From a virus: DNA of 45,164 nt. The DNA lies in the IMG/VR virus record IMGVR_UViG_3300027963_000005, positions 1 through 45,164 of that record. One strand, given 5' to 3'. Every line of letters starts with the position of its first letter. Position 1 is the first letter of the stretch. A program made the translations under genes and the position numbers. Under the pieces are notes generated by a model, which had not been told where the DNA came from, did not search any database, and was given only the letters and a program-made list of their open reading frames with translations. This document shows, piece after piece, positions 1,964 to 41,314 of the stretch.

Positions 1964-1965
1964 CT

Positions 1966-2241
1966 ATGAAATCAGATATTGTTGCGGAAATTGCGGCCCT
2001 AGCCCGCGAAGTGGCCGGCGTTGACCCCGTGGCGGCGCAAAAGCTGGCCAATGCGGTGCGCAATACTTACGGCGGGCAGAGCGTGAGGATTTTGCCCCGC
2101 GCCCCCATCACGCTGGCGTCCATCGACCAAGAGCTGCGGCGCGGCAAGCCGGTGCGGGTGATTGCGCAGGAGCTTGGGGTAAGCCGAGCGACTTTATACC
2201 GGCACCTATCGCAAAAAAAGCCAATTCCGGCAGGTAATTGA
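1966..2241 (+). CDS. Small HTH protein, Mor-like, between terL and connector gene
   Basis: A 91-residue protein starting two bases after terL. The C-terminal half is a clear helix-turn-helix (RVIAQELGVSRATLYRHL). Upstream of it, NTYGGQSVRILPR recalls the GGQ-x-YIP segment of Mu Mor/C-type activators, which also end in a short HTH. It could be a DNA-binding regulator of late genes or an accessory packaging protein. The HTH itself is confident; the Mor assignment is tentative, and resolvase-type HTH proteins are the main alternative. Its position inside the packaging operon is unusual for a transcription factor. Confidence 0.7.
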   Translation: MKSDIVAEIAALAREVAGVDPVAAQKLANAVRNTYGGQSVRILPRAPITLASIDQELRRGKPVRVIAQELGVSRATLYRHLSQKKPIPAGN

Positions 2242-2267
2242 GACCAAAAAGACCGTAAAATCCGCAC

Positions 2268-2495
2268 ATGGCAGGCATCACACTGGCTCAGGCCCAAGCA
2301 CAGCTCGACAAATACTTAGCGGCTGAAACCGCTATTTTGACGGGGCAGTCGTACCGTATTGGCGAGCGCGAGCTGCGCAGGGCCAATTTGGCCGAGGTAC
2401 AGGCGGGCATAAGCCTATGGAATGACCGCGTGCAGGCGTTGAGCAATAGCGCGTCGGGTCGCAGCCGTGCCGTTTCTGTCCGCCCCGGCTGGTGA
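2268..2495 (+). CDS. Head-tail connector-type small protein (gpW position, DUF6148-like)
   Basis: A 75-residue, largely helical protein. The start MAGITLAQAQAQLDKYLAAE, the middle SYRIGERELRRANLAEVQ and the ending WNDRVQALS fit the small DUF6148-type phage proteins that sit directly before the portal, where lambda has gpW. It probably helps to close or extend the portal channel, by analogy with gpW. Sequence identity to gpW itself is not evident, so the role rests on gene order and size. It lies 26 bases after the HTH gene and 11 bases before the portal gene. Confidence 0.75.
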   Translation: MAGITLAQAQAQLDKYLAAETAILTGQSYRIGERELRRANLAEVQAGISLWNDRVQALSNSASGRSRAVSVRPGW

Positions 2496-2506
2496 ACCAC
2501 TAAATC

Positions 2507-28822: not shown

Positions 28823-28927
28823 TTTACAACTTCTGTAAATAATCTTACGGGAGGCAATGATTCAAGGGCGGCGGACGCCAAATTCAAACGTTGCGGCGGA
28901 AGTACATTTACAATGTAAAATGTTTAC
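28823..28927. promoter_or_regulatory. Cluster of TTTAC/GTAAA half-sites before the PP-loop gene
   Basis: Five half-sites are visible: TTTAC 28823, GTAAA 28835, TTTAC 28907, GTAAA 28915 and TTTAC 28923. The pair at 28907-28919 is the perfect palindrome TTTACAATGTAAA, the same TTTAC-N3-GTAAA pattern found at the early promoters at 36957 and 40111. It is probably a repressor-binding region that ties the accessory gene to phage control (inference). Confidence 0.6.
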
Positions 28928-28934
28928 GGCGTGA
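28857..28934 (+). CDS. Possible 25-codon leader ORF
   Basis: A 25-residue reading frame (MIQGRRTPNSNVAAEVHLQC and five more residues) preceded by a very good ribosome site, CGGGAGGCA, six bases upstream of ATG. It runs across the TTTAC/GTAAA palindrome and stops 30 bases before the PP-loop gene. It could be a leader peptide or chance; no homologue was recognised. Confidence 0.25.
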   Translation: MIQGRRTPNSNVAAEVHLQCKMFTA

Positions 28935-28964
28935 CTTTGCGCTGTGATTCCGAATAATTGATAT

Positions 28965-29918
28965 ATGAATGAACACAACATCATCAGCGTATCCGGGGGA
29001 AAAGACAGCACAGCGTTGCTGCTACTGGCCATAGAACGACAGCCGGACAACATGCAGGCTGTATTCGCCGACACCGGCCACGAGCACCCGCAGACTTACG
29101 AGTATGTGCAGTACCTGAACGACAAGGTGTTTCCGATCCGCACGGTGCGGGCCGACTTCACTGCGGACATTGAGCGCAAGCGCGGTTTTGTCGCCACCAA
29201 GTGGCGCGAGCAGGGCATTCCCGAGGACACCGTGCTGCGAGCCATCGCGGCGCTGCAGCCCACAGGAAATCCATTTCTGGACCTGTGCATCTGGAAGGGC
29301 CGCTTCCCAAGCACCAAGGCGCGGTTCTGCAGCGAGGAGCTGAAGCGCAATCCTATCATCGAGCAGGTGCAGGCACCGCTGATTGACGCTGGCGACGATG
29401 TGATCAGCTGGCAGGGAGTGCGGGCCGACGAAAGCCTGGCTCGGCGCAACCTGGTGGAGATGGAGTCGAAGGCCACATGGCCGAACGGCGCGACGCTCTG
29501 GAATTACCGGCCCATCCTGAAGTGGACGGCGGAGGACTGCTTCGCCATGCACCGCAAGCACGGCATCAAGCACAACCCGCTGTACGAGCAGGGTATGGGC
29601 CGCGTCGGCTGTATGCCGTGCATCCACGCGCGCAAGGATGAGCTGCTGGCGATATCGCAGCGGTTCCCGGAGGAGATTGAGCGCGTTGCCGACTGGGAGC
29701 GGATTGTCGCCATGGCCAGCAAAAGGCAAGGAGCTACTTTTTTCAGTGGTGATTTAGGGCATTCTCCGACGCCAGAAGAAGCTGTTGCGGCCTTCAACAT
29801 CTATTCAATGGTGGAGTGGTCCAAGACCAGCCGGGGGAAAAGCAACTTCGACCTGTTCCGCACTGACAGCATCGAGCCCGGCGCGCTGTGCTCCAGCATT
29901 TACGGCTTGTGTGAATGA
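28965..29918 (+). CDS. PAPS reductase-family PP-loop protein (accessory gene)
   Basis: A 317-residue ATP-pyrophosphatase-type protein. The PP-loop motif SGGKDSTALLLLA is at residues 10-22, followed by FADTGHEHPQTYEYV. Cysteines occur in ARFCSEELKR, GCMPCI and ALCSSIYGLCE, a spacing that could hold an iron-sulfur cluster as in DndC and some PAPS reductases. The family activates an acceptor with ATP and often moves sulfur. In phages such genes are variable extras, and the substrate is unknown here. No DndA, DndD or DndE partner is present, so phosphorothioation by this gene alone is unlikely. The ATG lies between a half-site cluster and an AT-rich leader without a clear ribosome site. Confidence 0.82.
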   Translation: MNEHNIISVSGGKDSTALLLLAIERQPDNMQAVFADTGHEHPQTYEYVQYLNDKVFPIRTVRADFTADIERKRGFVATKWREQGIPEDTVLRAIAALQPTGNPFLDLCIWKGRFPSTKARFCSEELKRNPIIEQVQAPLIDAGDDVISWQGVRADESLARRNLVEMESKATWPNGATLWNYRPILKWTAEDCFAMHRKHGIKHNPLYEQGMGRVGCMPCIHARKDELLAISQRFPEEIERVADWERIVAMASKRQGATFFSGDLGHSPTPEEAVAAFNIYSMVEWSKTSRGKSNFDLFRTDSIEPGALCSSIYGLCE

Positions 29919-30434
29919 AGATCGAGACTGAGTGATATCGGCCACAATTCACCGCTGATAGCGTTTGCCGCTATTCGGTGCTTGCCAGATTCCCACACTG
30001 CGGTCAGGCTACGGTGCGTGGGATCACTCCCACGCACCGCGCCCCGAGGCCTCCAAGTTCCGAAGGGCCGCGTGCTTCCCGAGGGGTGGCGTTCGCAACA
30101 CGCCGCACATCGGTGCCGGGGGCTGGATCAGAGCCTCCGGCCCTTCCCTTCGGGCCTGCCGAATCACAGCCGCCAGGCGACCGAATCCGTCAAGCGACAC
30201 ATCGTAGGGCTTCCAGCACCCTGCGCCAAACCGCGCGCCCCCCGCTTCACAGGAAATCCGCGCACTGCGACACGTTTTCAACGATCGCATATCGCGCCGT
30301 CTTAACCGCCCATTAGCCCAAATGATGGCCTACTACATCTAGTAGGCCCCCCAATCTGCCGCTTTTTCAGGCACGCAAACCATTTTCCGATTACTGCGAT
30401 TTACTTCCTTGCTGCGAGTGCGAAAAGCCCAGCG

Positions 30435-30471
30435 TTCCCATTGTGCGGTGCGACAAAAATGGGAATTTTTT
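30435..30471 (+). terminator. Terminator-like stem-loop before the integrase
   Basis: Stem TTCCCATT / AATGGGAA (30435-30442 and 30458-30465) with a 15-base loop, followed by six Ts. The stem has only three G-C pairs, so its strength is uncertain. It would end transcription from the accessory region before int. Confidence 0.5.
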
Positions 30472-30504
30472 CGCTCTTGATGTCCAAAAATTAGGCGGCT
30501 AAGT

Positions 30505-30521
30505 TAGCGCTCCCTCCGGGG
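30505..30521 (+). repeat. 17-bp repeat TAGCGCTCCCTCCGGGG, copy 2
   Basis: Second copy of the repeat at 28793-28809. Extended by a base to TTAGCGC, it is matched by GCGCTAA at 30533-30539, giving a seven-bp stem. It lies about 100 bases upstream of the integrase start. Confidence 0.8.
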
Positions 30522-30543
30522 TAGCGGCGCAAGCGCTAACGCT

Positions 30544-30549
30544 TTGACA
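30544..30549 (+). promoter_or_regulatory. Consensus -35 box upstream of integrase
   Basis: TTGACA, a perfect sigma70 -35 hexamer, 72 bases before int. A -10 box at the right distance is poor (CAATTA region, 30567-30573), and an inverted repeat AATTGGG/CCCAATT fills the spacer, as an operator would. Confidence 0.35.
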
Positions 30550-30620
30550 AAATTGGGCAATCATTCCCAATTACGCGCCAGCGGCTCCGGTGTCAGTTTT
30601 GCGCCATCGGAGATTCGCAC

Positions 30621-31514
30621 ATGCACACCACACTGGAACTATTCACCGGCTACCTGCGCACTCTTGAGGGCCGCGCGTCGCTGCTTACGGCCAAGCGCAT
30701 TCTGATACCCGCTGGCGAGGAAATCGCCAAGCCGGCCGCCTCCGTGACGCCGCAGGACATTGTGGCCGTGCTGCGTCCGATCTACGCGCGGGGCTCGCGG
30801 GTGCAGGCGGACAAGGCGCGGATGTTCATGCGGGCAGCGTTTGAGTGGGGGCTGAAGGCTGGCAACGACTACCGCGTGGTGGATGCCCGCGACTGGGGGC
30901 TGGCGCGCAACCCTGCGGCGGCGATACCGCGCGACACGGGCAGCCAGCGGGCGGGGCAGCGCTGGCTACGGGCTGATGAGTTTGCCGCACTGCTGCGCTG
31001 GGCACGCAAGTGCCGCACGCGTGACGGCATCCGGTGCCTGCTGCTGACGGGGCAGCGGGTGCAGGAGATCACGCACATGCGGGTGGAGCAGTGGGACGCT
31101 GCCGAGCGCACCATCTACTGGGAGACGACCAAGGCGGGGATGCCGCACTGCATTCCGGTGGTGGATGAGGTGGCCGAGATTCTGAACGCCCGCGCGGCCC
31201 TTGGGCATGCGTTCATGTTTCCGGCGCGGCGGGCTATGGGGCGGCCGGTGCCGGTGGTGACGACGAAGCACGCGCTGTACCGATTCGGCGCCGCTCGCGG
31301 CTGGGAGCACTTCACCAGCCGCGACCTGCGGCGGACATGGAAAACGCTGGCGGGGCAGGCTGGGCTAACGAAGCTGGAGCGCGACCTGCTCCAGAACCAC
31401 GCAAGATCGGGGGATGTGTCGAGCAAGCACTACGACCGCTGGGCTTCTTTACCCGAAAAGCGCGCGGCCGTATCTCGCTGGCAGGCGTGGCTAGAGCAGC
31501 AATGCGGCCCCTAA
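30621..31514 (+). CDS. int: Tyrosine integrase/recombinase
   Basis: A 297-residue site-specific recombinase that would integrate and excise the phage genome. Catalytic set: first arginine in LLTGQRVQEITHMRV (about residue 143), the lysine in the following beta hairpin, R in TSRDLRRTWKT, histidine in LLQNHARSGD and the tyrosine nucleophile in SSKHYDRW (about residue 273). The N-terminal 100 residues form a core-binding-type helical domain (QADKARMFMRAAFEWGLKA). A ribosome site CGGAGA lies ten bases before ATG. It is convergent with, and overlaps by 24 bases, the mini membrane gene on the other strand. This gene makes the phage temperate. Confidence 0.92.
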   Translation: MHTTLELFTGYLRTLEGRASLLTAKRILIPAGEEIAKPAASVTPQDIVAVLRPIYARGSRVQADKARMFMRAAFEWGLKAGNDYRVVDARDWGLARNPAAAIPRDTGSQRAGQRWLRADEFAALLRWARKCRTRDGIRCLLLTGQRVQEITHMRVEQWDAAERTIYWETTKAGMPHCIPVVDEVAEILNARAALGHAFMFPARRAMGRPVPVVTTKHALYRFGAARGWEHFTSRDLRRTWKTLAGQAGLTKLERDLLQNHARSGDVSSKHYDRWASLPEKRAAVSRWQAWLEQQCGP

Positions 31515-31586
31515 TATGCCGAGGCCAAAGCAGACCACGTTACTGATGGCGATTAAGAGGGCGACTTCGAGCGTGTCGGGGCTCAT
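31491..31586 (-). CDS. Mini membrane protein coupled to HTH gene
   Basis: A 31-residue peptide: MSPDTLEVALLIAISNVVCF and then a leucine/alanine end, essentially a single membrane helix with a short acidic N-terminus. Its ATG overlaps the stop of the HTH gene (ATGA), which argues for translation by coupling. The function is unknown; small membrane peptides of this kind in lysogeny regions sometimes act in exclusion or membrane sensing, but that is only a possibility. Confidence 0.5.
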   Translation of the reverse strand: MSPDTLEVALLIAISNVVCFGLGILGAALLL

Positions 31587-31798
31587 AAATTCACCCTGAA
31601 GGCTTCGGGCAGGTTGTCGTTCGCCGGCTCCAGCCGGCGCAGCTCCATCATGCAGCGCAGGGCAACATTGACGAAGCAGGGGCAGCACTTGCCCCTGCGC
31701 CAGTTGGATACGGTCTGTCTAGTTACGCCGAGCGCTGCTGCCAGTTTGGTGTCGCTGAGATTGAGCTTTTTTTGGGCATCCGCAACAAAGCTATTCAC
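31583..31798 (-). CDS. Small HTH transcriptional regulator
   Basis: A 71-residue DNA-binding protein with an XRE-type helix-turn-helix (LSDTKLAAALGVTRQTVSNWRRG). I choose GTG 31798 because AGGTGA lies at a proper distance; GTG 31807 would add three residues but place that site inside the gene. It is the regulator gene nearest to int and has a 13-bp palindrome, TTTGCAAAGCAAA (31825-31837), just upstream as a possible self-operator. It is too small to contain a LexA-type cleavage domain, so it is not a classical CI. Confidence 0.75.
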   Translation of the reverse strand: MNSFVADAQKKLNLSDTKLAAALGVTRQTVSNWRRGKCCPCFVNVALRCMMELRRLEPANDNLPEAFRVNL

Positions 31799-31824
31799 GT
31801 GTCTCACCTGCGTAAATCAGTGCA

Positions 31825-31837
31825 TTTGCAAAGCAAA
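31825..31837. promoter_or_regulatory. Palindrome upstream of HTH gene
   Basis: TTTGC-AAA-GCAAA, a perfect interrupted palindrome of 13 bases located 27 bases upstream of the HTH start on the minus strand. Its layout (5-3-5) is the same as the TTTAC-N3-GTAAA element used elsewhere, but the sequence differs at the inner base pairs. It could be an operator. Confidence 0.35.
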
Positions 31838-31868
31838 TTGAGCAGCAGAATCAGATGTACACAATCCG

Positions 31869-31903
31869 TAAAAAAAAAGCCCCAACACCGAAATGCTGGG
31901 GCT
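31869..31903 (-). terminator. Rho-independent terminator of the recombination operon
   Basis: Read on the minus strand: AGCCCCAGCA, loop TTTCGG, TGTTGGGGCT with one mismatch, then a run of nine Ts (plus-strand A 31870-31878). It lies 23 bases after the SSB-like gene and insulates it from the HTH gene. Confidence 0.9.
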
Positions 31904-31925
31904 GATTGGCGGTGTTATTTATCGG

Positions 31926-32207
31926 TCAGAAATCAATGTCGTCATCGACCGGCCGCTGCGCCGCAGGCTTACCAGCTGGGCGCTGGCCGTCGTCTTGGCG
32001 GGGCTCAAACAACGATAAAACCAAGGTATCTCGGTTGTCTGGGTTCGGCACGCCGGCGGGGTTGAACGTGCGCTTTAGGATGAGGTACGGGCCGTTTTGG
32101 CCTTCCATCATTGTGCCGACGTTTTCATAACGCGACTTAATTTGACCGTTGCGGTCTGTGTATTCGCCAGTCTTAACAGCGATATCAAATTTGCGTGTGT
32201 TTGCCAT
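31926..32207 (-). CDS. SSB-like protein with acidic tail
   Basis: A 93-residue protein, last of the recombination operon. The N-terminal part (KFDIAVKTGEYTDRNGQIKSRYENVGTMMEG, then YLILKRTFNPAG) is a short beta-rich fold. The C-terminus is a proline/glutamine linker ending in the acidic tip DDDIDF, which strongly resembles the DDDIPF end through which SSB proteins bind partners. It is shorter than a typical SSB, so the OB fold is not proven. It lies beside a Sak4-type ATPase, as small SSBs often do. Ribosome site AAAGGA. Confidence 0.65.
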   Translation of the reverse strand: MANTRKFDIAVKTGEYTDRNGQIKSRYENVGTMMEGQNGPYLILKRTFNPAGVPNPDNRDTLVLSLFEPRQDDGQRPAGKPAAQRPVDDDIDF

Positions 32208-32230
32208 AATGTCCTTTCAGTTGGCGTGGT

Positions 32231-33196
32231 TTAGAAAACTTCGTTACCGGCGGCTGCCGCATTCAATGCATCGAGCGCTGGGTCGTCGTGCTGGGCCTCG
32301 GGGGCCTGGCGGGCTTTGTCGAATGCCTCGGCGCTGGCCTTGGCGGATTCGATGAATGCTTTGCCTAGGGATTTTTGAACGGCCTTTGGTGTGGCCTCCC
32401 ATGCCGCGCGCAATGATTCCATGCCGCCCTCGGTGGCCAGCTGGACGAGGCCACGGTGGTGCTCTACGGCGGGGTCGAGCTGCTTGGCGCCGTCAACCCA
32501 TGCGCGGAGATCGGAGCCGTCTTTCATGGTGAGATAACCGGTGCCGCGTCCCATGATTTCTTGTAGGGCGGCTGGGCATTTGATGACTTCCTGACGCTTG
32601 CCTTGGTCATGCAGCATTAGGCTGACTGTGGCCTCAAACATCACATTTTTTTCAGTAATCGGCTGCAAGCCCATATCTACATAGACGGTCTTTTCGCGGC
32701 CATCGACGTATTGCTTTTCCGGCTTCGCTTTTTCGCGGGCACGCAGGCAAAGAATGACGTGCATTGGGCTCGCCAGCAAAGCCGACATAAATTTCTTATG
32801 CTCACTCTTGGCTTTGTTCCAGTTTGGTAGGCGCGGGTTTCCGGCCTCGGCAATTTCTTGGATGCCTCCGAGCCCTTCGTATTCATGGCTGCCGCTGTCG
32901 ATCACCAGCACCTCGACGCCTGCTGCGGCAAATTCTTCGATGGCTTGGACGTAGCGCTGTGGCGAAAACGGCGGGCGCAACTCAGCGTACAGAAACGAAT
33001 TCGGCAGTTCGTCCGCGTACAGACGGCCGCGTCCAGACTCGGTGTCCAAGAAGCCCACTTCTTTTCCGTTGCCATTGGCCATGCCATAGGCGAGCTGGAG
33101 CGCTGTGTAGGTCTTGCCCCCGCCCGAAACGCCGGCAAGAAATACCAGCAACCGTGCGCCTTCGCGCTTTGCTTCTACGATGTTCAGAATGCTCAT
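32231..33196 (-). CDS. RecA-like ATPase, Sak4-type (AAA_24) recombinase
   Basis: A 321-residue RecA-core ATPase. Walker A GVSGGGKT (about residues 23-30), then GKEVGFLDTESGRG, and a Walker B-like strand in VEVLVIDSGSHEYEG. A conserved core segment MHVILCLRAREKAKPEKQ and a C-terminal helical tail follow. This pattern fits the phage nucleotide-binding/Sak4 group of single-strand annealing and exchange proteins. It acts with the RecE-like exonuclease and the SSB-like protein in one operon. Ribosome site AAGGAACA before ATG. Non-Sak4 ATPases with the same fold cannot be fully excluded. Confidence 0.8.
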   Translation of the reverse strand: MSILNIVEAKREGARLLVFLAGVSGGGKTYTALQLAYGMANGNGKEVGFLDTESGRGRLYADELPNSFLYAELRPPFSPQRYVQAIEEFAAAGVEVLVIDSGSHEYEGLGGIQEIAEAGNPRLPNWNKAKSEHKKFMSALLASPMHVILCLRAREKAKPEKQYVDGREKTVYVDMGLQPITEKNVMFEATVSLMLHDQGKRQEVIKCPAALQEIMGRGTGYLTMKDGSDLRAWVDGAKQLDPAVEHHRGLVQLATEGGMESLRAAWEATPKAVQKSLGKAFIESAKASAEAFDKARQAPEAQHDDPALDALNAAAAGNEVF

Positions 33197-33208
33197 ATTG
33201 TTCCTTAT

Positions 33209-33856
33209 TTAAGTGTGGCGAATCCACTCGCCTGGTTCAGTGAAAACGTGTGTATTGCGTTTGCTGCAGTTCATGCTTGCCGGTATGACCTGAAGATTAT
33301 TCGCGCAATGAAAACCGGTTGCGGTCTTGGACCGCAGCGGGATCATGTGGTCAATGTGCCACCTAACCCCAGTACATTTCTCTCGCAGGCGGACCAATCT
33401 CCTAGCCTCGATTTCAACTAGTTGATCGAGTTCGCCATACCAAATAGGAATTGCTCGCAATTTTGCCGCTTGGCGTTTTGCCACCTGCTGGACGATTTCC
33501 GCGCTGCGCTCTAAATACAGTTCGCGTTTACGTGCGTTTATCTGGTCTTTGCGTGCGTTCCGCTGGTTACGCTTTTCGATCCGGCTGGACTCAACGTCGG
33601 AATAATACCTTTGCAAAACATTCTGCACCTTTTTTGCGCGATTGCTTGCGTACCATTCCGCGTAGTATTTCGCATATCGGCTTTGATACTCTTGGCCGAG
33701 TAGAGCGCGCTTTCGCTGCTGGATGCTACGATCGCACTCCATGCAAGTACCCTTGACCCTCCGCATGGCAACGTGCCCATGCTTGCAGGGTTTCCCAGTA
33801 AAGTAGTGCGTGCGGCCTTCTTTAATTGCTTGTGATCGCATGATAATTTCAAACAT
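33209..33856 (-). CDS. HNH endonuclease, likely free-standing homing type
   Basis: A 215-residue nuclease. The N-terminal region has paired cysteines (GKPCKHGHVAMRRVKGTCMECD), a zinc-type segment seen in phage HNH homing enzymes. A long basic helical linker full of R, K and N follows, then the HNH core WHIDHMIPLRSKTATGFHCANNLQVIPASMNCSKRN. I choose ATG 33856 because AACCAAGGAG then sits at a better distance than for ATG 33859. It lies between the exonuclease and ATPase of one recombination operon, and its own start element copies that of the neighbours. Probably a mobile gene. Confidence 0.85.
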   Translation of the reverse strand: MFEIIMRSQAIKEGRTHYFTGKPCKHGHVAMRRVKGTCMECDRSIQQRKRALLGQEYQSRYAKYYAEWYASNRAKKVQNVLQRYYSDVESSRIEKRNQRNARKDQINARKRELYLERSAEIVQQVAKRQAAKLRAIPIWYGELDQLVEIEARRLVRLREKCTGVRWHIDHMIPLRSKTATGFHCANNLQVIPASMNCSKRNTHVFTEPGEWIRHT

Positions 33857-33879
33857 CATCTACTCCTTGGTTAAAAAAA

Positions 33880-34740
33880 TTATGCCGCCACCGCCTCGGC
33901 CACCTGCTTGGCCGCCCATGCGGGCAGCTCCAGCGGTTGGACGGTTTGGGGGTATCCGTACCAGCGGTTGTTGCGGGCGCAGTCGGCGTAAATGCCGAGC
34001 AGGCGGCGGTATTCGCGGCGGCCAAATTCGAGAAAGTCGGCGGCTGCGCTGTAGTATGCGGTCGCGTATGGCTCGGCCTTTTCTTGGGCCAGCCAAATGA
34101 ATGCCGGTGGCCCGCTGGTGCCGTGTACTTGCTGAAAGCCGTCGGCGTAGTAAGCCGCCTGAATGTGCAAATCCCAGTTCATCGAATACTTGGCAAACCC
34201 TGCGGCGCTCATGTCCTCGCCGGTCTTGCCGTCAACGAGCAGTCCGTTGGGAAACATCGCGCAGGGTGGCACGGCGTAATCGGGGCGGATTTTGCACGCG
34301 GCGCCGGTGGTGGCGTCTGTCCAGAATAACGACGCCTCGGCAACCCCGCCGTCTTGGCCGAATATCACCTTGCTGATGGGGTGCGCGGCTGCGCTGGCGG
34401 TCATGGCCTTGATGCGCGCCATGTCGTCGAACGATAGCGGCTGCTTACCTGATGCTTCCAGCTCCGCGAACAGCGCCTTGCCTTCTTTTGTGCGGCGGTC
34501 GAGGCCTTCGGGTATCTCGATGTATTCGGCCTCGAATGCTTCGGGCTCAAAAATGGCCGCGTGCCATGCGGTGCCCAGCTTCATGGCTGGCGTTGGCTCT
34601 TGCGGCTTGCGGTTTGGGTCGCGGTAGGCGGCCCAATAATGCAACGGGCTGCGGGCGATCAGCTTGAGGCCGCTGCTGCCGACTGCGCTGTGGCCATGGT
34701 AGGCCTCATTTGGCATATCTGCCTTGATCTCAGTGCTCAT
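33880..34740 (-). CDS. RecE/exonuclease VIII-like PD-(D/E)XK nuclease
   Basis: A 286-residue 5'-3' exonuclease candidate that prepares DNA ends for the Sak4-type protein. The N-terminal ADMPNEAYHGHSAVGSSGLKLIARSPLHYWAA is the typical opening of exonuclease VIII/RecE-like phage proteins. The core has MKLGTAWHAAIFEPEAFEAEY, then KIRPDYAV and LLVDGKTGEDMSAAGFAKYSMNWDLHIQAAYY, giving the D...D-x-K catalytic layout of the family. First gene of the minus-strand operon, with AACCAAGGAG at 34745-34754 as ribosome site. Confidence 0.87.
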   Translation of the reverse strand: MSTEIKADMPNEAYHGHSAVGSSGLKLIARSPLHYWAAYRDPNRKPQEPTPAMKLGTAWHAAIFEPEAFEAEYIEIPEGLDRRTKEGKALFAELEASGKQPLSFDDMARIKAMTASAAAHPISKVIFGQDGGVAEASLFWTDATTGAACKIRPDYAVPPCAMFPNGLLVDGKTGEDMSAAGFAKYSMNWDLHIQAAYYADGFQQVHGTSGPPAFIWLAQEKAEPYATAYYSAAADFLEFGRREYRRLLGIYADCARNNRWYGYPQTVQPLELPAWAAKQVAEAVAA

Positions 34741-34885
34741 TTTTCTCCTTGGTTTATGTACGTGTTGCGTAACCAGTGCTGAAAGTATAGCGCATTTATT
34801 TACGGGTGGCGGAATTTATTTGTGCTTTACGTAGTATATACTCAGCGCGTACACTTTCAACACGACATTATTTTACGGGGCACAC
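34741..34885. promoter_or_regulatory. Divergent early control region
   Basis: Lies between the minus-strand recombination operon and the Cro-size gene. Plus strand: -35 TTTACG (34826-34831) and -10 TACACT (34850-34855), followed by TTCAACAC as in the other two early promoters. The -35 starts the near-palindrome TTTAC-GTA-GTATA. AGTATATACT (34833-34842) is also palindromic. Minus strand: a -10-like TATACT in the region 34786-34791. Good candidate for the main genetic switch. Confidence 0.65.
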
Positions 34886-35083
34886 ATGAAGATGATCGAA
34901 TACAGGCGGCTGAGGCGGCAAACGCGCAAGCAAGTGGCCGACGAGCTGCAGACCACCATCACGACGGTCTACCGGCTGGAAACGGGCCGACACGGTGCCA
35001 GCGCTGAGATGCTCAAGCGCATCGGCACTTGGTCAAACGGTGCGGTGACGGCGAACGACCTGGTGGGGGCGAGGCCGGTATGA
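34886..35083 (+). CDS. Cro-size HTH regulator
   Basis: A 65-residue XRE-type DNA-binding protein: EYRRLRRQTRKQVADELQTTITTVYRLETGRHGASAEMLKRIGTWSNGAVTANDLV. The helix-turn-helix covers nearly the whole length, as in Cro. It is the first gene of the rightward early operon and lies on the divergent control region. A ribosome site TTACGGGGCA precedes ATG. Its stop overlaps the next start (ATGA). Probably turns down the lysogeny side; the target could be the TTTAC-N3-GTAAA sites (inference). Confidence 0.8.
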   Translation: MKMIEYRRLRRQTRKQVADELQTTITTVYRLETGRHGASAEMLKRIGTWSNGAVTANDLVGARPV

Positions 35084-35376
35084 AGCCGCTGTACCTTGCG
35101 GGGCCGATGAGCGGCTACCCCGAATTCAACTACCCAGCATTCAACGCTAAGGCCGCCGAGCTTCGTGGGCTGGGCTTTACAGTATGCAACCCCGCCGAAA
35201 ACGGGCTAGGCGCCGATGCATCGTGGGACGAGCACATGCGGGCCGATCTGGCCATGCTGCTCCAGTGCGACGCCATCTATCTGCTGCCTGGCTGGTCAAA
35301 ATCACGCGGCGCAACGCTGGAGCACGCCATCGCGCTGGAGCTGGGGATGGCGATTACTTATGGGGCGACTGAGTGA
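35080..35376 (+). CDS. DUF4406 / nucleoside deoxyribosyltransferase-like protein
   Basis: A 98-residue protein with the DUF4406 signature LYLAGPMSGYPEFNYPAFNAKAAELRGLGFTVCNPAE and CDAIYLLPGWSKSRGATLEHAIALELGM. The fold is related to nucleoside 2-deoxyribosyltransferases, with the glutamate in TLEHAIAL as the likely catalytic position. Phages often carry it, and a role in nucleotide salvage or modification is assumed but unproven. It overlaps genes on both sides (ATGA, GTGA). Confidence 0.85.
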   Translation: MKPLYLAGPMSGYPEFNYPAFNAKAAELRGLGFTVCNPAENGLGADASWDEHMRADLAMLLQCDAIYLLPGWSKSRGATLEHAIALELGMAITYGATE

Positions 35377-36914
35377 CCAGCCTGCGCCCCTACCAGACCG
35401 CCATGGTGCGCGAGGTGTCGCAGCACTATCAATCCGGCGTTCAGGGCGTGCTCATGCAATCGGCTACCGGTTCGGGCAAAACCCGCACGGCCAGCTACAT
35501 CGTGGGCAAATACGCAATGACCTGCAGGCAGGTGCTGTGGCTGGTGCACCGCGAGGAATTGCTGATGCAGGCGGCGATGACGTTCGCGCAGCAGGGCATC
35601 AACCACCGGCTGGTGTGCGCCGATAGCAGCGCGCGGGCGATTAAGGCGCAGCAGTTCCGCGAGCTGGGGCGCACGTATGTCAACCCCACCGCGCAGGTCG
35701 TGGTGGCCAGCATCCAGACCATTGTGCGGCGGCTTGACCGGCTGCCGTGGCTCCAGCCCGCGCAGATCATTGCCGATGAGGCCCACCTATCGCTGGCGGC
35801 CACATGGCGGAGAGTGCTGGAGCACTGGCCCAATGCGCGGCTGCTGGGCCTTAGCGCAACGCCGACCAGGCTGGACTGTCAATCGTTCTCACGCGCCGAC
35901 GGTGGGCTGTACGACACGCTGGTGTCCGGCCCGCCGGTGGCTGACCTGATCGAGTGGGGCAACCTCGCGCGGTTTAAGGTGTACGCGCCGCCCATACACT
36001 TCCGCGAGGGCGTCAAGCTGCGCCGCAAGGGGGGCGACTACGACACCAAGGACTTGGAAGCTGAACTGGATGCGCCGGTGATCTACGGCGACGTGATTGG
36101 CCACTACGAAAAACTGAGCAGGGGCAAGCCGGCCATTGCGTTCTGCCCCACGGTGGCCAGTGCCGAGCGTTTCGCGCAGGCGTTCCGTGATGCCGGATAC
36201 AAGGCCATTGCACTGGACGGCACCACGGACGACGCGGTGCGCCGGCGTAGCCTGCAGCAGTTGGGTGCGGGCGAGCTGGACGTTGTGACCAGCGTTTCGA
36301 TTCTGGTCGAGGGCCTCGACGTTCCGTATGCCACCACGGCGCTGATGTTGCGCAGGACTGAATCGCTGTCGCTGTACCTGCAAGCCGTAGGCCGTGTGCT
36401 GCGCCCCCACCCGCAAAAAGACCACGCCATCATTCTCGATTTTGTCGGCGTCACATCCATTCACGGTTTCCCAGACGAGCTGCGCGAATGGTCGCTCGAT
36501 GGCAAGCAGCGCCGCGTGCGGGCCGCAAACGATAACGAGCCGGACGTGAAGGTGCAGACCTGCACGCACTGCTTCGCGGTGCATGTGCCAGCGCCGGTGT
36601 GCCCAGCGTGCGGGCATGAGCACCCAATAAAACAGCGCCGCGAAATGCAGCAGGTGGACGGCGCCCTAGAGGAAATCACCGCCGACCAAATGGAGGCCAT
36701 CCGCCGCCAGAAGCGCCTGCTCCAAGGCCAAGCACAGTCGGTCGAGCAGCTGGTGGCGCAGGGTATCGGGCGCTTCCGTGCCATGAAGATCGTCGAGGCC
36801 CGCGAGCAAAAGGCCCGCCTCCGCGAGCAGGTACGGGACGCACGGCCGGATATTCCGATGCGGCAATTACTGGCCATGAAACCCGCAGAATTGCGCGCGG
36901 CCATTGCAGTATAG
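35373..36914 (+). CDS. Superfamily II DEAH-box helicase with zinc finger
   Basis: A 513-residue DNA helicase/translocase of the type found in phage replication modules. Start at GTG 35373 (GTGA overlap). Motif I ATGSGKT is at residues 31-37, motif Ia in LWLVHREELL, motif II IADEAHLS at about 132-138, motif III LLGLSATPTRLD and motif VI LQAVGRVLRPH. A four-cysteine zinc finger follows (CTHCFAVH, then CPACGHEH), and the C-terminal 110 residues are helical and basic. It resembles the UvsW/RecG-like and type I restriction helicase-like group. Confidence 0.9.
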   Translation: MTSLRPYQTAMVREVSQHYQSGVQGVLMQSATGSGKTRTASYIVGKYAMTCRQVLWLVHREELLMQAAMTFAQQGINHRLVCADSSARAIKAQQFRELGRTYVNPTAQVVVASIQTIVRRLDRLPWLQPAQIIADEAHLSLAATWRRVLEHWPNARLLGLSATPTRLDCQSFSRADGGLYDTLVSGPPVADLIEWGNLARFKVYAPPIHFREGVKLRRKGGDYDTKDLEAELDAPVIYGDVIGHYEKLSRGKPAIAFCPTVASAERFAQAFRDAGYKAIALDGTTDDAVRRRSLQQLGAGELDVVTSVSILVEGLDVPYATTALMLRRTESLSLYLQAVGRVLRPHPQKDHAIILDFVGVTSIHGFPDELREWSLDGKQRRVRAANDNEPDVKVQTCTHCFAVHVPAPVCPACGHEHPIKQRREMQQVDGALEEITADQMEAIRRQKRLLQGQAQSVEQLVAQGIGRFRAMKIVEAREQKARLREQVRDARPDIPMRQLLAMKPAELRAAIAV

Positions 36915-36939
36915 GTTTTACCTAATGACTTGGTGGTTT

Positions 36940-36993
36940 CAATAGTTAGAATTGTGTTTACGTTGTAAATATTCGGCGTATAGTTCAACACAT
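36940..36993 (+). promoter_or_regulatory. Early promoter with TTTAC-N3-GTAAA operator, copy 1
   Basis: -35 TTTACG (36957-36962), 16-base spacer, -10 TATAGT (36979-36984), then TTCAACACAT. The palindrome TTTACGTTGTAAA (36957-36969) covers the -35 box. The 54 bases match 40094-40147 at 47 positions. Drives the small-gene operon starting at 37021. Confidence 0.75.
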
Positions 36994-37020
36994 CGCAACA
37001 AACCAACCAAGGAGTTAAAG

Positions 37021-37215
37021 ATGAGCAAATACAAGTTAGACGTAGCGCGTGATGTGGACACAGATGAGCCTGGAAGCTACATCTTGAACCTGCCTCGCGG
37101 ATTTCGCTTCGACGATGAAGTCGTCCACGTTCGTGGATTCGACACCATGAAAGAGCTGCGTCAGTCCGTAAAGACAGACGTTATCCCGTGCGACTGCAAG
37201 GGTTGCGCTCAGTAA
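37021..37215 (+). CDS. Small early protein, unknown function
   Basis: A 64-residue protein starting at ATG 37021 behind AACCAAGGAG. It opens KYKLDVARDVDTDEPGSYILNLPRGFRFDDEVVHVRGFDTMKELRQSV and ends in a cysteine-rich CDCKGCAQ tail that might bind a metal. It is the first gene after the strong early promoter and is expected to be made early and in quantity. Not recognised. Confidence 0.65.
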   Translation: MSKYKLDVARDVDTDEPGSYILNLPRGFRFDDEVVHVRGFDTMKELRQSVKTDVIPCDCKGCAQ

Positions 37216-37224
37216 ATAAAAACA

Positions 37225-37238
37225 GGGGCCTCGGCCCC
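37225..37238 (+). other. Short intergenic stem-loop
   Basis: GGGGC-CTCG-GCCCC lies in the 49-base gap between two small early genes, without a T-run. It may stabilise or partly end the upstream mRNA. Confidence 0.4.
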
Positions 37239-37264
37239 AACCAACAAACCAAGGAGTAATTCAA

Positions 37265-37438
37265 ATGTTCAAAATCAACCAAATCGTTCGCGGCACAACT
37301 TCCGGTCACTATGTCGTCATGGGCTATCGCCCAGTGGGCACCGAGATCAAGGTGTGCGTTAAGCGCTGGGACACCATGAGCGGGCTGACCATGCCTGGCG
37401 AGATGGTTTTCGCGGCCGACGAATTGCGTGCCTACTAA
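37265..37438 (+). CDS. Small early protein, unknown function
   Basis: A 57-residue protein from ATG 37265 behind AACCAAGGAG. It begins MFKINQIVRGTTSGHYVVMGYRPV and ends GEMVFAADELRAY, a compact beta-type sequence of the kind found in tiny early phage proteins that read as a single small barrel. No known domain is recognised. The start element is the same as for its neighbours. Confidence 0.6.
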   Translation: MFKINQIVRGTTSGHYVVMGYRPVGTEIKVCVKRWDTMSGLTMPGEMVFAADELRAY

Positions 37439-37469
37439 TTTTTTCAACCAACCAAAGGAGTATTTAAAA

Positions 37470-37544
37470 ATGGATAAATTCGAAATCATCTGGTCTTGGA
37501 TGACCCTTGCCACCATCATGGTTATCACTGGTCTGGGGTTCTAA
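37470..37544 (+). CDS. Micro membrane peptide, 24 residues
   Basis: MDKFEIIWSWMTLATIMVITGLGF: one membrane helix with a short charged start. AACCAAAGGAG lies eleven bases upstream, a strong ribosome site of the same type as its neighbours. The next gene starts immediately after the stop. No function is recognised; size and initiation site are the support. Confidence 0.55.
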   Translation: MDKFEIIWSWMTLATIMVITGLGF

Positions 37545-37673
37545 ATGAAGCACTTGCACTTTATGGATTTACACCCCGAATACCGCTCGAAATTCTCACG
37601 CACGCACGATTGGTACGACGCATTAGTATTTACAATGTGGGTACTGTCGATTACTTCAATTTTCTTTCTGTAA
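37545..37673 (+). CDS. Small membrane-anchored peptide, 42 residues
   Basis: Starts at ATG 37545 directly behind the previous stop (TAAATG) and ends in a hydrophobic helix (ALVFTMWVLSITSIFFL). The first 27 residues are polar and rich in H, R and D. This is the second membrane peptide in a row. Translation by re-initiation is likely. Not recognised. Confidence 0.5.
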   Translation: MKHLHFMDLHPEYRSKFSRTHDWYDALVFTMWVLSITSIFFL

Positions 37674-37679
37674 TCAATC

Positions 37680-37856
37680 ATGTTCCAAGATTCTTTATTC
37701 GACCTTTTTGAGCGCCAGCCTGCGGTTGAGACCGAGCGGCAAATCCGCACCGAATGGCGCACCCGCGAGGAAATCATCAACGCGCTGGCACGCCAGCAGA
37801 TGGAGCAGATACGCGAGGAAATACAGCAGCAACGCAAACCGCTGGGGGTGCGGTAA
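37680..37856 (+). CDS. Small helical protein, unknown function
   Basis: A 58-residue protein starting at ATG 37680: MFQDSLFDLFERQPAVETER, then a long charged helix rich in R, E and Q. The MFQDSLFD opening resembles the short leading segment of other early phage proteins. Its stop and the next start share TAATG. Function unknown. Confidence 0.55.
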   Translation: MFQDSLFDLFERQPAVETERQIRTEWRTREEIINALARQQMEQIREEIQQQRKPLGVR

Positions 37857-38032
37857 TGGCCAGCATTCAAGACGACCTCAAAATGGCGCTGCACATCATC
37901 CTGCAGGCCCAGCACACGCTGGCGGTGCAGGATGCTGAAATCATGCGCTTACGCGCCGAGCTGCTGCGCACACGCGAGGAAACTGTCAACCTAACTATTG
38001 AGAAGCACCATGTGGCAAAACCGACTAAATAA
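37856..38032 (+). CDS. Small helical protein, unknown function
   Basis: A 58-residue, heptad-like coiled protein (SIQDDLKMALHIILQAQHTLAVQDAEIMRLRAELLRTREETVNL). It starts on the TAATG overlap at 37856. It may pair with the preceding helical protein. Its end overlaps the next small membrane gene by 23 bases. Confidence 0.55.
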   Translation: MASIQDDLKMALHIILQAQHTLAVQDAEIMRLRAELLRTREETVNLTIEKHHVAKPTK

Positions 38033-38144
38033 ATTAAAACTGGCCGCCGTGATTGCGGCGACCTGCTTTTTCTTGATGCTTTCGACCGTGATATTTGCGG
38101 CGCTGGGCACCATGCTGCTTACACACTGGGGTTTTTTAACGTGA
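38010..38144 (+). CDS. Small membrane protein, 44 residues
   Basis: MWQNRLNKLKLAAVIAATCF, then a hydrophobic helix to GFLT: a basic start followed by one long membrane segment. ATG 38010 lies within the end of the preceding gene. The stop TGA overlaps a GTG start (GTGA). Function unknown; possibly affects the host membrane early in infection. Confidence 0.5.
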   Translation: MWQNRLNKLKLAAVIAATCFFLMLSTVIFAALGTMLLTHWGFLT

Positions 38145-38305
38145 ACCAATCGGACTTAAAGCACGTGGCCGACGTTGTTGCCGAGGCGGCTGCAGTGCTT
38201 GAGTTGGCGGCAAAAGGCAGGGGCAACCCCATCCAGATGCGCCGCATGGCTGAGGAACTAAAGGCAGCGGAATTACTACTTAATGAGGTGAAAAATGAGA
38301 GTTGA
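38141..38305 (+). CDS. Small protein, 54 residues, unknown function
   Basis: Read from GTG 38141, overlapping the previous stop. Sequence NQSDLKHVADVVAEAAAVLELAAKGRGNPIQMRRMAEELKAAELLLNEV: a helical pair with an R/M-rich centre. It overlaps the next gene by 11 bases. Not recognised. Confidence 0.5.
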   Translation: MNQSDLKHVADVVAEAAAVLELAAKGRGNPIQMRRMAEELKAAELLLNEVKNES

Positions 38306-38486
38306 AGGCGCAGGTATGTACAAAGTCGTCCAACCCGTGGCCGTCGAGCCCGTGAAGCGCGTGGGCGCCGTCGACGAAAAAAAGGTGGCCGAAATCCGCA
38401 AGGAGCAGGCCGACAATGTTCAGCACATCGTCAAAACCCCTGAACCCAAGCGCGACCCTGAGCGCATTCTTTCGGAGCGCGTGTGA
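38295..38486 (+). CDS. Small charged protein, unknown function
   Basis: A 63-residue protein from ATG 38295, behind GAGGTG. It contains KVVQPVAVEPVKRVGAVDEKKVAEIRKEQADNVQHIV and is rich in V, P, E and K. It is probably flexible. It overlaps its neighbours on both sides (11 and 4 bases), typical of a tightly packed early operon. Confidence 0.5.
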   Translation: MRVEGAGMYKVVQPVAVEPVKRVGAVDEKKVAEIRKEQADNVQHIVKTPEPKRDPERILSERV

Positions 38487-38710
38487 CGGCTGAACTGACC
38501 AAGGCCGCCGAAATGGCCCTGAAAGCACTGGAGCTGGTGCGCGAGTTCAATCCCATGCCGCCATGCGACGAGGGCTTCGTGGACGACGCCATCCGAAACC
38601 TGAAGGTGGCGCTCACGCCCAGCTTGACCGCCGAGCGCTTTGTTTTGAGCGATGAGGACTTAGAGGCGCTCACCCACCAGCGCGCGCTGCTGAATCAGGG
38701 GGCGCGGTGA
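38483..38710 (+). CDS. Small helical protein, unknown function
   Basis: A 75-residue protein from GTG 38483 (GTGA overlap). Sequence TAELTKAAEMALKALELVREFNPMPPCDEGFVDDAIRNLKVAL is a short helical repeat similar in type to several small early phage proteins of unknown function. The stop overlaps the next start as GTGA. Confidence 0.55.
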   Translation: MTAELTKAAEMALKALELVREFNPMPPCDEGFVDDAIRNLKVALTPSLTAERFVLSDEDLEALTHQRALLNQGAR

Positions 38711-39003
38711 ATATCAAGGATGAGGCGATCAAGTACTCAATCGAGGTGATTGAGACGCACATGCGGGGCAGCGATGTGTACCCGCAGGCGATTCAGATTC
38801 TGGTGGCCGCTCTGCAGCATCCGGCCGTTGACCCCACACGGCTGGAGCGCTGGGCCAAGGCCACGCTGTCGCCCTACAACACTTCGCCCATGAGCGATGC
38901 CCAGCTGTCGGCCATCTGGCACTCGCTGCCGGACGGCGACGAAAAATTCATCAGCTACGGCCGCGCGGTTGAAACGGTGCACAACGTGAGGGGGCGGTCA
39001 TGA
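38707..39003 (+). CDS. Small early protein, unknown function
   Basis: A 98-residue protein from GTG 38707. Mixed helical sequence (IKYSIEVIETHMRGSDVYPQAIQILVAALQHP, then WHSLPDGDEKFISYGRAVETVH). The WHSLPDGDEKFISYGRAVE block looks like a conserved short phage motif but has no assigned function that I know. It overlaps the next gene as ATGA. Confidence 0.55.
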   Translation: MNIKDEAIKYSIEVIETHMRGSDVYPQAIQILVAALQHPAVDPTRLERWAKATLSPYNTSPMSDAQLSAIWHSLPDGDEKFISYGRAVETVHNVRGRS

Positions 39004-39242
39004 GCTGCGCCCACGTATGGACTGACATTAGCGCGAACCGCACGGATGAGTGGCAGTGCGCCATCTGCAAAACGCTGTACACGGACTCCAAGCCGAGCAC
39101 CGCACCGAAGCGCCATTGGGAAAGCCTGACGACGCGCGAGGTGAGCGACATCTTGGAAGATGTACGCAAACAAACCGCTGGCAATATCTACGCGGCTTTC
39201 GCGCGGGGTATTGAGGCGGCGTTAAAACACAAAAATACTTAA
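39000..39242 (+). CDS. Small protein with possible zinc site
   Basis: An 80-residue protein from ATG 39000. C3, H5, C20 and C23 (MSCAHVW and WQCAICK) could bind one zinc ion. The helical second half contains TTREVSDILEDVRKQTAGNIYAAFARGIEAALK. Possibly a nucleic-acid binding accessory protein. Not recognised beyond this. Confidence 0.55.
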   Translation: MSCAHVWTDISANRTDEWQCAICKTLYTDSKPSTAPKRHWESLTTREVSDILEDVRKQTAGNIYAAFARGIEAALKHKNT

Positions 39243-39254
39243 TCGGAGAATTTC

Positions 39255-39347
39255 ATGACTGCATCCCAATGGGTGTTGCTTGCCCTTGGCTTTTTTGCCG
39301 GTTGCTTGGCGACCGTGGCCTATATTTACGCGGCGGTGATCGAATGA
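39255..39347 (+). CDS. Micro membrane peptide, 30 residues
   Basis: ATG 39255 behind CGGAGAA. The sequence is one membrane helix (MTASQWVLLALGFFAGCLAT and a short end). Its stop overlaps the next start (ATGA). It is the fourth single-helix peptide in this early operon. Confidence 0.5.
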   Translation: MTASQWVLLALGFFAGCLATVAYIYAAVIE

Positions 39348-39583
39348 AGTGCCCGCTGTGTAACGCACCGACCGAGGTGCTGGAGACACGTGCCAGCCCA
39401 GCTGGCAAACGACGACGCTACCAGTGTTTCAATTTGCACAGGTTCACGACCACTGAAGCGGTCGTAGAATCTGCTTGTGCGAAACGCGGAAACAAACATT
39501 CAGAACGCTTGCCTGCTGGCGGCTGGCTCGGACAGCTCGGTGCTGGTCTGGCGCCAACAGTCGGGGGTGCTCCGTGCGTTTGA
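39344..39583 (+). CDS. NrdR-like zinc-ribbon protein
   Basis: A 79-residue protein from ATG 39344. MKCPLCNAPTEVLETRASPAGKRRRYQCFNLHRFTTTEAVVESA carries the CPxC...ETR...RRRYxC...HRFTTxE zinc-ribbon pattern of the NrdR N-terminus, a DNA-binding module. The ATP-cone of full NrdR is absent, so this is a stand-alone ribbon. The last 36 residues overlap the nuclease gene in another frame for 107 bases and may be only a tail without function. Confidence 0.7.
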   Translation: MKCPLCNAPTEVLETRASPAGKRRRYQCFNLHRFTTTEAVVESACAKRGNKHSERLPAGGWLGQLGAGLAPTVGGAPCV

Positions 39584-39848
39584 TGACCCGCGCCGTGTGG
39601 TCAAAGTCGGCGTGCCTGGCATGTCCGACCTGCTGGCCGTGGTAGCCGTGCAGATCACCGAAGATATGGTCGGCAAGACCGTCGGCGTGGCCGTGGCGGC
39701 TGAGATCAAAACCGACACGGGCAAGCAGCGGCCCAACCAGCGACTGTGGCAGGACGCGTTCCAGCGGCGTGGGGGCATTTATGCGCTCATCCGCTCACCG
39801 GCTGAAATGCTGGGCCTGATTGCGAGGGTGCAGCGTGGTGAATGGTGA
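39477..39848 (+). CDS. VRR-NUC nuclease
   Basis: A 123-residue nuclease of the VRR-NUC family, used by phages in replication or recombination. Start at GTG 39477 gives the typical opening RNAETNIQNACLLAAGSDSSVLVWRQQSGVLRAF. The active site follows: GVPGMSDLLAVV (aspartate), VAAEIKTDTGKQRPNQRLWQDAF (E-x-K), then GGIYALIRSPAEM. It overlaps the zinc-ribbon gene upstream by 107 bases and the next gene by 11. Relatives of this size act on branched DNA. Confidence 0.85.
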   Translation: MRNAETNIQNACLLAAGSDSSVLVWRQQSGVLRAFDDPRRVVKVGVPGMSDLLAVVAVQITEDMVGKTVGVAVAAEIKTDTGKQRPNQRLWQDAFQRRGGIYALIRSPAEMLGLIARVQRGEW

Positions 39849-40068
39849 CCTGATCGGCATGGTGCACGCCGAGCGTTGTGGCATGCGCTGCGGGCTGTAC
39901 GTATTCCCCGATAAGACCTACCGGCTGCGCTTTAACCTTGGCGTGGGCTGGCTGCCGACGCCGTTTCGCGAGAATTCGAAGGCGTGGACGGCTCTGTTCA
40001 ACACTGCCAGCTACAGCGACACGGAAGTCGAAATGCTGCGCAAAATCTGCAAGCCACAGCCATATTAG
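39838..40068 (+). CDS. Small protein, unknown function
   Basis: A 76-residue protein. Start GTG 39838 is chosen over 39835 because GAGGGTG is then at a better distance; the difference is one residue. Contains MVHAERCGMRCGLYVFPDKTYRLRFNLGVGWLP and a helical end. The FNTASYSDTEVEMLRKIC part looks like a small conserved phage element. Ends before the terminator-like stem at 40076. Confidence 0.5.
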   Translation: MNGDLIGMVHAERCGMRCGLYVFPDKTYRLRFNLGVGWLPTPFRENSKAWTALFNTASYSDTEVEMLRKICKPQPY

Positions 40069-40075
40069 GCTAAGG

Positions 40076-40103
40076 CTATTGGCCGGCCAAACCCAATAGT
40101 TTT
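40076..40103 (+). terminator. Terminator-like stem before second early promoter
   Basis: CTATTGG / CCAATAG with a ten-base loop is followed by TTTT. The overlapping TTGGCCGGCCAA is a 12-bp perfect palindrome. It partly overlaps the promoter block starting at 40094. Confidence 0.5.
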
Positions 40104-40147
40104 AATTGTGTTTACGATGTAAATACTTGGTTTATAGTTCAACACAT
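40094..40147 (+). promoter_or_regulatory. Early promoter with TTTAC-N3-GTAAA operator, copy 2
   Basis: -35 TTTACG (40111-40116), 16-base spacer, -10 TATAGT (40133-40138), then TTCAACACAT. The palindrome TTTACGATGTAAA (40111-40123) covers the -35 box. Nearly the same 54 bases as at 36940-36993 (47 matches). Drives the genes from 40185. Confidence 0.75.
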
Positions 40148-40184
40148 GGCAGCGACGCCATGTAACTAAACCAAGGAGCTGAAA

Positions 40185-40893: not shown

Positions 40894-41100
40894 ATGCAAC
40901 CTGAATTATTTAAACCCGAAGCCCGCCCCACCAAGGCGGCGATCATCCCCACCACGGCCACGTCACGCACCATGAGCTTATGGGAGCGCGGCACGTATGT
41001 ACCGGAGCCCCAGCACACCCCAGTACGGCCTGGCGCGCTGGACTACAAAAACCTGCCATCGCGCGGCTTTGGGGCCGACCCACGCGATGAGGGGCAATAA
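40894..41100 (+). CDS. Small proline-rich protein, unknown function
   Basis: A 68-residue protein from ATG 40894. The MQPELFKPEARPTKAAIIPTTATSRTMSLWERGTYVP opening includes a Pro-rich, flexible segment. The end PVRPGALDYKNLPSRGFG is also Pro-rich. Overlaps the next gene by 14 bases. Not recognised. Confidence 0.5.
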   Translation: MQPELFKPEARPTKAAIIPTTATSRTMSLWERGTYVPEPQHTPVRPGALDYKNLPSRGFGADPRDEGQ

Positions 41101-41314
41101 ATTGACACCAGCGGAAAGAAAACAGGCGTTCGACGCGCTGTATGACGCACTGCCTGGCAGCAACGCCGACAAGGTGCGCACCATTAGCCGCGTGCTATTT
41201 TGTAAGCCGAACACGGTGAGAATTTGGCACCTGAAGGCGCCGACCCGAATTATTCCTGAAGCGAAGCTGCGGATGCTTATGCGGGAGTTTGGGGCTGGGC
41301 AGAATCGGGTATGA
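41087..41314 (+). CDS. Small HTH DNA-binding protein
   Basis: A 75-residue protein from ATG 41087 (an in-frame TTG 41102, with GAGGGG at a good distance, is the alternative). The helical segment KVRTISRVLFCKPNTVRIWHLKAPTRIIPEAKLRMLMREF reads as a helix-turn-helix of the Cro/YdaS type. It is the last gene before the replication protein and may control it or the late region. Confidence 0.6.
   Translation: MRGNKLTPAERKQAFDALYDALPGSNADKVRTISRVLFCKPNTVRIWHLKAPTRIIPEAKLRMLMREFGAGQNRV

Follow-up and report, generated by a model that had tools for sequence, protein, structure and literature searches.

The stretch analysed, called the window below, comprises the whole of a virus record (IMG/VR record IMGVR_UViG_3300027963_000005, 45,164 bases), in which the palindrome TTTAC-N3-GTAAA is found ahead of early genes. 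A preliminary description had presented it as an operator shared by four control points, and all four copies were recovered where that description had placed them: three are perfect (28907, 36957 and 40111) and one, at 34826, has one mismatch. These copies, the duplicated block around two of them, the helicase gene used to find relatives and the gene of the candidate repressor, which encodes a small helix-turn-helix (HTH) protein, are listed here.

28907..28919, + strand: operator copy 1, TTTACAATGTAAA, also found by the matrix scan; the ATG of the PP-loop gene is 45 nt downstream
28923-28935: weaker copy, TTTACGGCGTGAC, found by the weight matrix and recorded as overlapping operator copy 1
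36957..36969, + strand: operator copy 2, TTTACGTTGTAAA; post-helicase site, conserved in 8 relatives
40111..40123, + strand: operator copy 3, TTTACGATGTAAA; promoter of the operon running from 40185 to the primase gene
34826..34838, no strand assigned: operator copy 4, one mismatch; divergent region
36940..36997, + strand: duplicated promoter block, copy A (family D2)
40094..40151, + strand: duplicated promoter block, copy B (family D2)
35373..36914, + strand: DEAD/DEAH helicase gene
31583..31807, - strand: candidate repressor, XRE-type HTH protein of 71-74 aa; its gene closes the leftward operon and faces the integrase gene in convergent orientation
31825..31837, no strand assigned: site of possible autoregulation, TTTGCAAAGCAAA, with two mismatches; immediately before the HTH gene, ranked 4th in the window by the weight matrix

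Chance is excluded as the source of the copies. The preliminary description had made its case depend on the motif being rarer in random sequence, and this is what was found: 0.015-0.055 perfect copies per window are expected under Markov models of order 1 to 3, and none of 600 simulated windows contained three or more. TTTAC-N3 is the joint commonest 5-nt perfect inverted repeat in the window, the other repeats being GC-rich and differently spaced. Two more one-mismatch copies, at 11663 and 22947, both lie within the structural-gene half. In one respect, the strength of the case had been overstated. The blocks 36940-36997 and 40094-40151 are 86% identical across 58 nt; because the promoter block has been duplicated, the copies at 36957 and 40111 have a common origin and are not independent, so that two of the three perfect copies represent one duplication. 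Independent support for the motif comes from related phages, which also carry it. A further palindrome with a different spacing, TTTAC-N7-GTAAA (TTTACAACTTCTGTAAA), is located at 28823-28839, 84 nt upstream of operator copy 1.

The helicase gene, which lies downstream of the divergent region, served as the anchor for fetching relatives, and more than 80 related viral loci were obtained. At least 10 uncultured relatives contain the motif, frequently in homologous positions. In eight relatives (L006, L014, L017, L018, L019, L020, L022 and L030), whose helicases are 40-57% identical to that of the window, it directly follows the helicase gene. When these post-helicase promoters are aligned, the invariant columns are chiefly those of both palindrome arms, the right arm, GTAAATA, being as invariant as the -35 box. 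This arm falls within the -35/-10 spacer and is not a sigma-70 element; promoter function alone is therefore insufficient to explain the pattern. The consensus of the operator is about TATTTACRNYGTAAATA. A weight matrix, built on 30 sites from the relatives with the window left out, was used to scan the 45-kb window and ranked the site at 36957 first, 40111 second, 28907 third and 34826 seventh. Tandem pairs of sites are seen only in some relatives (L015, G013 and possibly L013), the sites being otherwise mostly single and dispersed; 10 are contained in G013. Some candidates were removed: L004 was rejected as an independent relative, being a near-identical copy of the window, and four of the six matches obtained by scanning IMG/VR for TTGTGTTTACGNTGTAAA (L009-L012) lie inside genes of unrelated phages and were attributed to chance. 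In one of these, L010, the region 803-3466 encodes a terminase-like protein with an apparent intein-like insertion.

The distribution of the motif was compared with that of all protein families of the region. The best fit is given by the family of the HTH protein encoded at 31583, and no other DNA-binding family fits equally well. Perfect sites number 17 in the 14 HTH-positive loci (218 kb), including one that is scored two times because L114 and L183 overlap; the HTH-negative helicase relatives, 65 after deduplication (909 kb, with a lower GC content), have none. A reversed-pattern control gave 0 matches in the HTH-positive loci and 2 in the HTH-negative ones. L114, a 53-kb record recovered from viral contigs by the HTH alignment search alone, contains 6 perfect and 4 one-mismatch sites, mostly just upstream of gene starts. 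Within the family, the recognition helix is nearly invariant (TRQTWRNWRRG).

The protein itself matches PF01381 over the cut-off (E=3e-6), as a member of the HTH_3/XRE fold; a GTG at 31798 may be a better start for its gene, giving 71 aa. Its AlphaFold model is a compact four-helix HTH (mean pLDDT 78.5). The Foldseek matches to this model, among them Aca2, Aca1 and P22 C2, are HTH proteins of a generic kind, and every one of them has an E value above 0.05. Comparison with known protein families revealed nothing beyond the generic HTH match. Homologue searches gave two weak fragments only in INPHARED phages and nothing convincing in PLSDB plasmids and about 770 bacterial genomes, and consequently no cultured phage or host with this HTH protein was found. 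Distant matches to the HTH protein (L115-L182, mostly 65-73% over about 26 residues) contain no perfect site in 728 kb and for this reason were left out of the analysis; they make up an abundant related family of small HTH proteins (GVTRQTVYNWFEGKDVF), found in many short viral contigs without this operator.

The position of the sites relative to promoters, called here as consensus matches, was then evaluated. According to the preliminary description, three copies cover a -35 box. This is firm for the sites at 36957 and 40111, where the left half-site provides the -35 box of rightward promoters of the form TTTACG-N16-TATAGT, with the -10 at 36979-36984 and 40133-40138, respectively. At 34826 the rightward reading, as -35 for the Cro-like gene, is weak (TTTACG-N18-TACACT, 8/12); within the divergent region the best match is a leftward promoter (TTGAAA-N16-TATACT, 10/12, 34860-34833), and the mismatched half-site, TATACT, is its -10 box. 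No standard -10 is found at 15-18 nt spacing from the site at 28907. Over the whole collection, the left half serves as a -35 with a -10-like hexamer at 15-18 nt, on one strand, in 24 of 36 sites, compared to 6.4 expected and a maximum of 13 with shuffled flanks; 33 of 36 have a -10-like hexamer in either of two arrangements (17.7 in the null). A perfect TATAAT directly precedes or overlaps the site at L007 13685, L013 7359 and L015 5321. The perfect sites of L013 and L015 stand at the start of the DUF3799 gene and of its operon, where the counterpart in the window has one mismatch. In this arrangement, with the site over or just after a perfect TATAAT, only repression makes sense.

The other genes which enter the proposed circuit are the following.

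28965..29918, + strand: PP-loop/PAPS-reductase-domain gene, proposed target
31878..31903, - strand: intrinsic terminator separating the SSB-like and HTH genes
33880..34740, - strand: PDDEXK exonuclease-like gene (DUF3799) with which the leftward early operon begins, proposed target; perfect sites at its start in L013 and L015
34886..35083, + strand: Cro-like HTH gene, first of the rightward early operon; proposed target, less likely binder
40997..41314, + strand: small HTH-like open reading frame, likely start at 41087; upstream of the primase gene

The leftward operon encodes the DUF3799 nuclease, an endonuclease VII-like protein, an AAA_24 ATPase and an SSB-like protein, and is closed by the HTH gene, which follows the terminator at 31878-31903. 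In L017 (4565-8499) the early module is rearranged into a leftward SSB-HTH and a rightward DUF3799-AAA24-Cro operon, with a one-mismatch operator between them; this site, together with the operon layout, makes a feedback of the HTH protein on its own operon likely. The site at 31825 is kept as a suggestion only, because the relatives lack one at this position. The PP-loop gene has an 84% identical copy in L013 (7677-8633), where it lies in the rightward operon, after the Cro-like gene and with a perfect site upstream; its location in the window is different, with an operator of its own there, and the helicases of the two phages are 65% identical. Such identity at different genome positions indicates a recently mobile accessory gene. 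As previously proposed, it appears to belong to the regulon, an operator being kept ahead of it despite the change of location. Strong stem-loops are found between the SSB-like and HTH genes in several phages (-49.6 kcal/mol, z -6, in L019). The idea that an RNA stem-loop ahead of the HTH gene is conserved was dropped, since a strong structure is present in the window, L007, L017, L018 and L019 whereas L013, L014, L015 and L114 have a weak one or none. An inverted repeat of 25 nt (43994-44018/44088-44112, 88% complementary, 69 nt apart) is located between the primase and small terminase genes.

Taken together, the data indicate that a repressor encoded by the phage probably uses TTTAC-N3-GTAAA as its operator; this repressor would most likely be the HTH protein encoded at 31583, acting as a dimer. 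When bound, this protein would cover the -35 box of both rightward promoters (36957 and 40111); at 34826 it would cover the -10 of the leftward early promoter along with the -35 of the Cro-like gene, and at 28907 the region ahead of the PP-loop gene. Because promoter boxes would be covered, RNA polymerase would be excluded from all target promoters together, and since the HTH gene is the last of a leftward operon controlled by one of the sites, the proposed circuit would include a negative feedback. The earlier proposal was that one repressor could silence the early operons, the switch and the PP-loop gene. Its shared operator is well supported by conservation, by placement over the -35 or at -10/+1, and by co-occurrence with one HTH family; the part concerning the switch is weaker, as neither an S24-type CI repressor nor a classical CI/Cro switch region is present.

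A number of observations weigh against assigning the operator to the 31583 protein. The recognition helix encoded in the window (TRQTVSNWRRG) is the most divergent of the family, yet the sites of the window are near the consensus. Two HTH-positive loci, L112 (17 kb, recovered like L114 by the HTH search) and L016, both fragments, contain no site at all, and the relatives do not share the site seen at the HTH gene itself. In addition, the co-occurrence of motif and HTH gene could in part reflect shared ancestry, for which the Fisher test makes no correction, because most positive loci carry the same gene block. Finally, operator binding, repression and dimerisation by this protein are properties that we infer.

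The operator might instead be bound by another phage protein, either the Cro-like product of 34886 or the small HTH-like one near 41087, which had been listed along with 31583 as possible binders. Both are of HTH type, and the site at 34826 adjoins the Cro-like gene. The recognition helix of the Cro-like protein, however, is variable among relatives, and in six of them (L006, L007, L016, L018, L020 and L022) its gene is replaced by an unrelated ribbon-helix-helix gene while most retain the motif; being variable and often replaced, it is a poor repressor candidate. In favour of 41087, its family is found only in motif-positive phages, and a site lies just upstream of its homologues in L183 and L019, although this placement suggests that the gene is probably a target; against it, no member of the family turned up in L030 despite the 4 sites there, and the recognition segment differs from phage to phage. 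Binding by either protein is thus rather unlikely, and of the three listed proteins the evidence selects 31583. In about half of the relatives, the rightward genes begin with a ribbon-helix-helix gene (for example L006 4116-4304 and L007 6326-6508).

It may also be supposed that the sequence is simply a strong -35 element, kept and copied as a promoter, in which the palindrome is incidental and no repressor is involved. TTTACG and TTTACA are indeed near-consensus -35 boxes with a -10 at 16-17 nt, and the sites at 36957 and 40111 derive from one duplicated promoter. This explanation, which we regard as very improbable, does not account for a right arm conserved within the spacer, nor for the palindrome being placed at -10/+1 at the DUF3799 starts and at L007 13685; furthermore, the complete dyad occurs far more often than chance predicts, and its presence follows that of the HTH gene. 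Some phages use host repressors, and a host regulator reading the site could couple the early genes of the phage to host physiology. Against this, the presence of sites follows the phage HTH gene and not helicase relatedness, and the sites are phage-wide and numerous, as in G013; a role of this kind seems extremely unlikely.

Repression by a phage protein through an operator repeated at promoters is of a well-known kind, exemplified by Cro/CI, Aca, MrpR/SPBRE and stoperators. As in the lambdoid phages (lambda, 434, P22), a small XRE-type HTH protein and palindromic operators over early promoter boxes are found, and the fold predicted for the 31583 protein resembles, among other HTH proteins, P22 C2. 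Unlike lambdoid CI, the candidate has 74 aa and no S24 domain for autocleavage and dimerisation; this domain (PF00717) is absent from all 14 records, several of them fragments, in a search including positive controls. The operators are mostly single and dispersed rather than arranged in triplets as in OL/OR, no clustered divergent switch is seen, and the HTH gene ends the leftward operon, beside the integrase. Aca repressors bind an inverted repeat inside the core promoter of their operon (PMC9410906). As with Aca, the HTH gene comes last in an early operon, and an inverted repeat may likewise occupy the core promoter of that operon, where perfect sites are seen in L013 and L015 and a one-mismatch site in the window; Aca2 and Aca1 are structural matches to the model (TM up to 0.70 and 0.63, respectively, with Foldseek E above 0.05). 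Here, in contrast, several operons would be controlled and not one, and comparison with the sequences of solved Aca proteins gave no match at E<=1. No acr gene was identified, in an analysis that included no search aimed at such genes. In SP-beta, the repressor MrpR acts on one repeated element, SPBRE, in many phage promoters (PMC10516654), a similar logic implemented by a protein with a tyrosine-recombinase fold instead of a 70-aa HTH. Cluster A mycobacteriophages of the L5 type likewise have many repressor sites over one genome and no CI-type arrangement, but their stoperators are asymmetric, monomer-bound and also stop elongation (PMC9283540), whereas the sites described here are symmetric dyads located at promoters. 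A matching operator was not found in a literature search, and the 31583 HTH family and its operator appear undescribed in the sources searched.

As to the role of the 31583 protein, we lean slightly towards a damper of early genes, comparable to Cro or Aca, because its gene lies in an early operon. A true lysogeny repressor is a possible, less expected role, favoured by the terminator which precedes the gene and by the lack of CI. More speculatively, and with some doubt, the family of about 70 aa might be the master lysogeny repressor of integrase-bearing uncultured phages without S24, working by way of 4-10 single operators that are fused to -35 boxes and travel with accessory genes. The analysis provides a candidate pair of operator and repressor, the one with a consensus open to testing and the other a named protein, for phages whose candidate repressor has no relative in the collection of cultured phages that was searched. 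With the operator as a guide, metagenomic sequence can be read directly for early promoters, for the limits of operons and for the membership of the regulon, the PP-loop accessory gene included, and the finding suggests a way in which early genes may be controlled in temperate phages that lack an S24 repressor.

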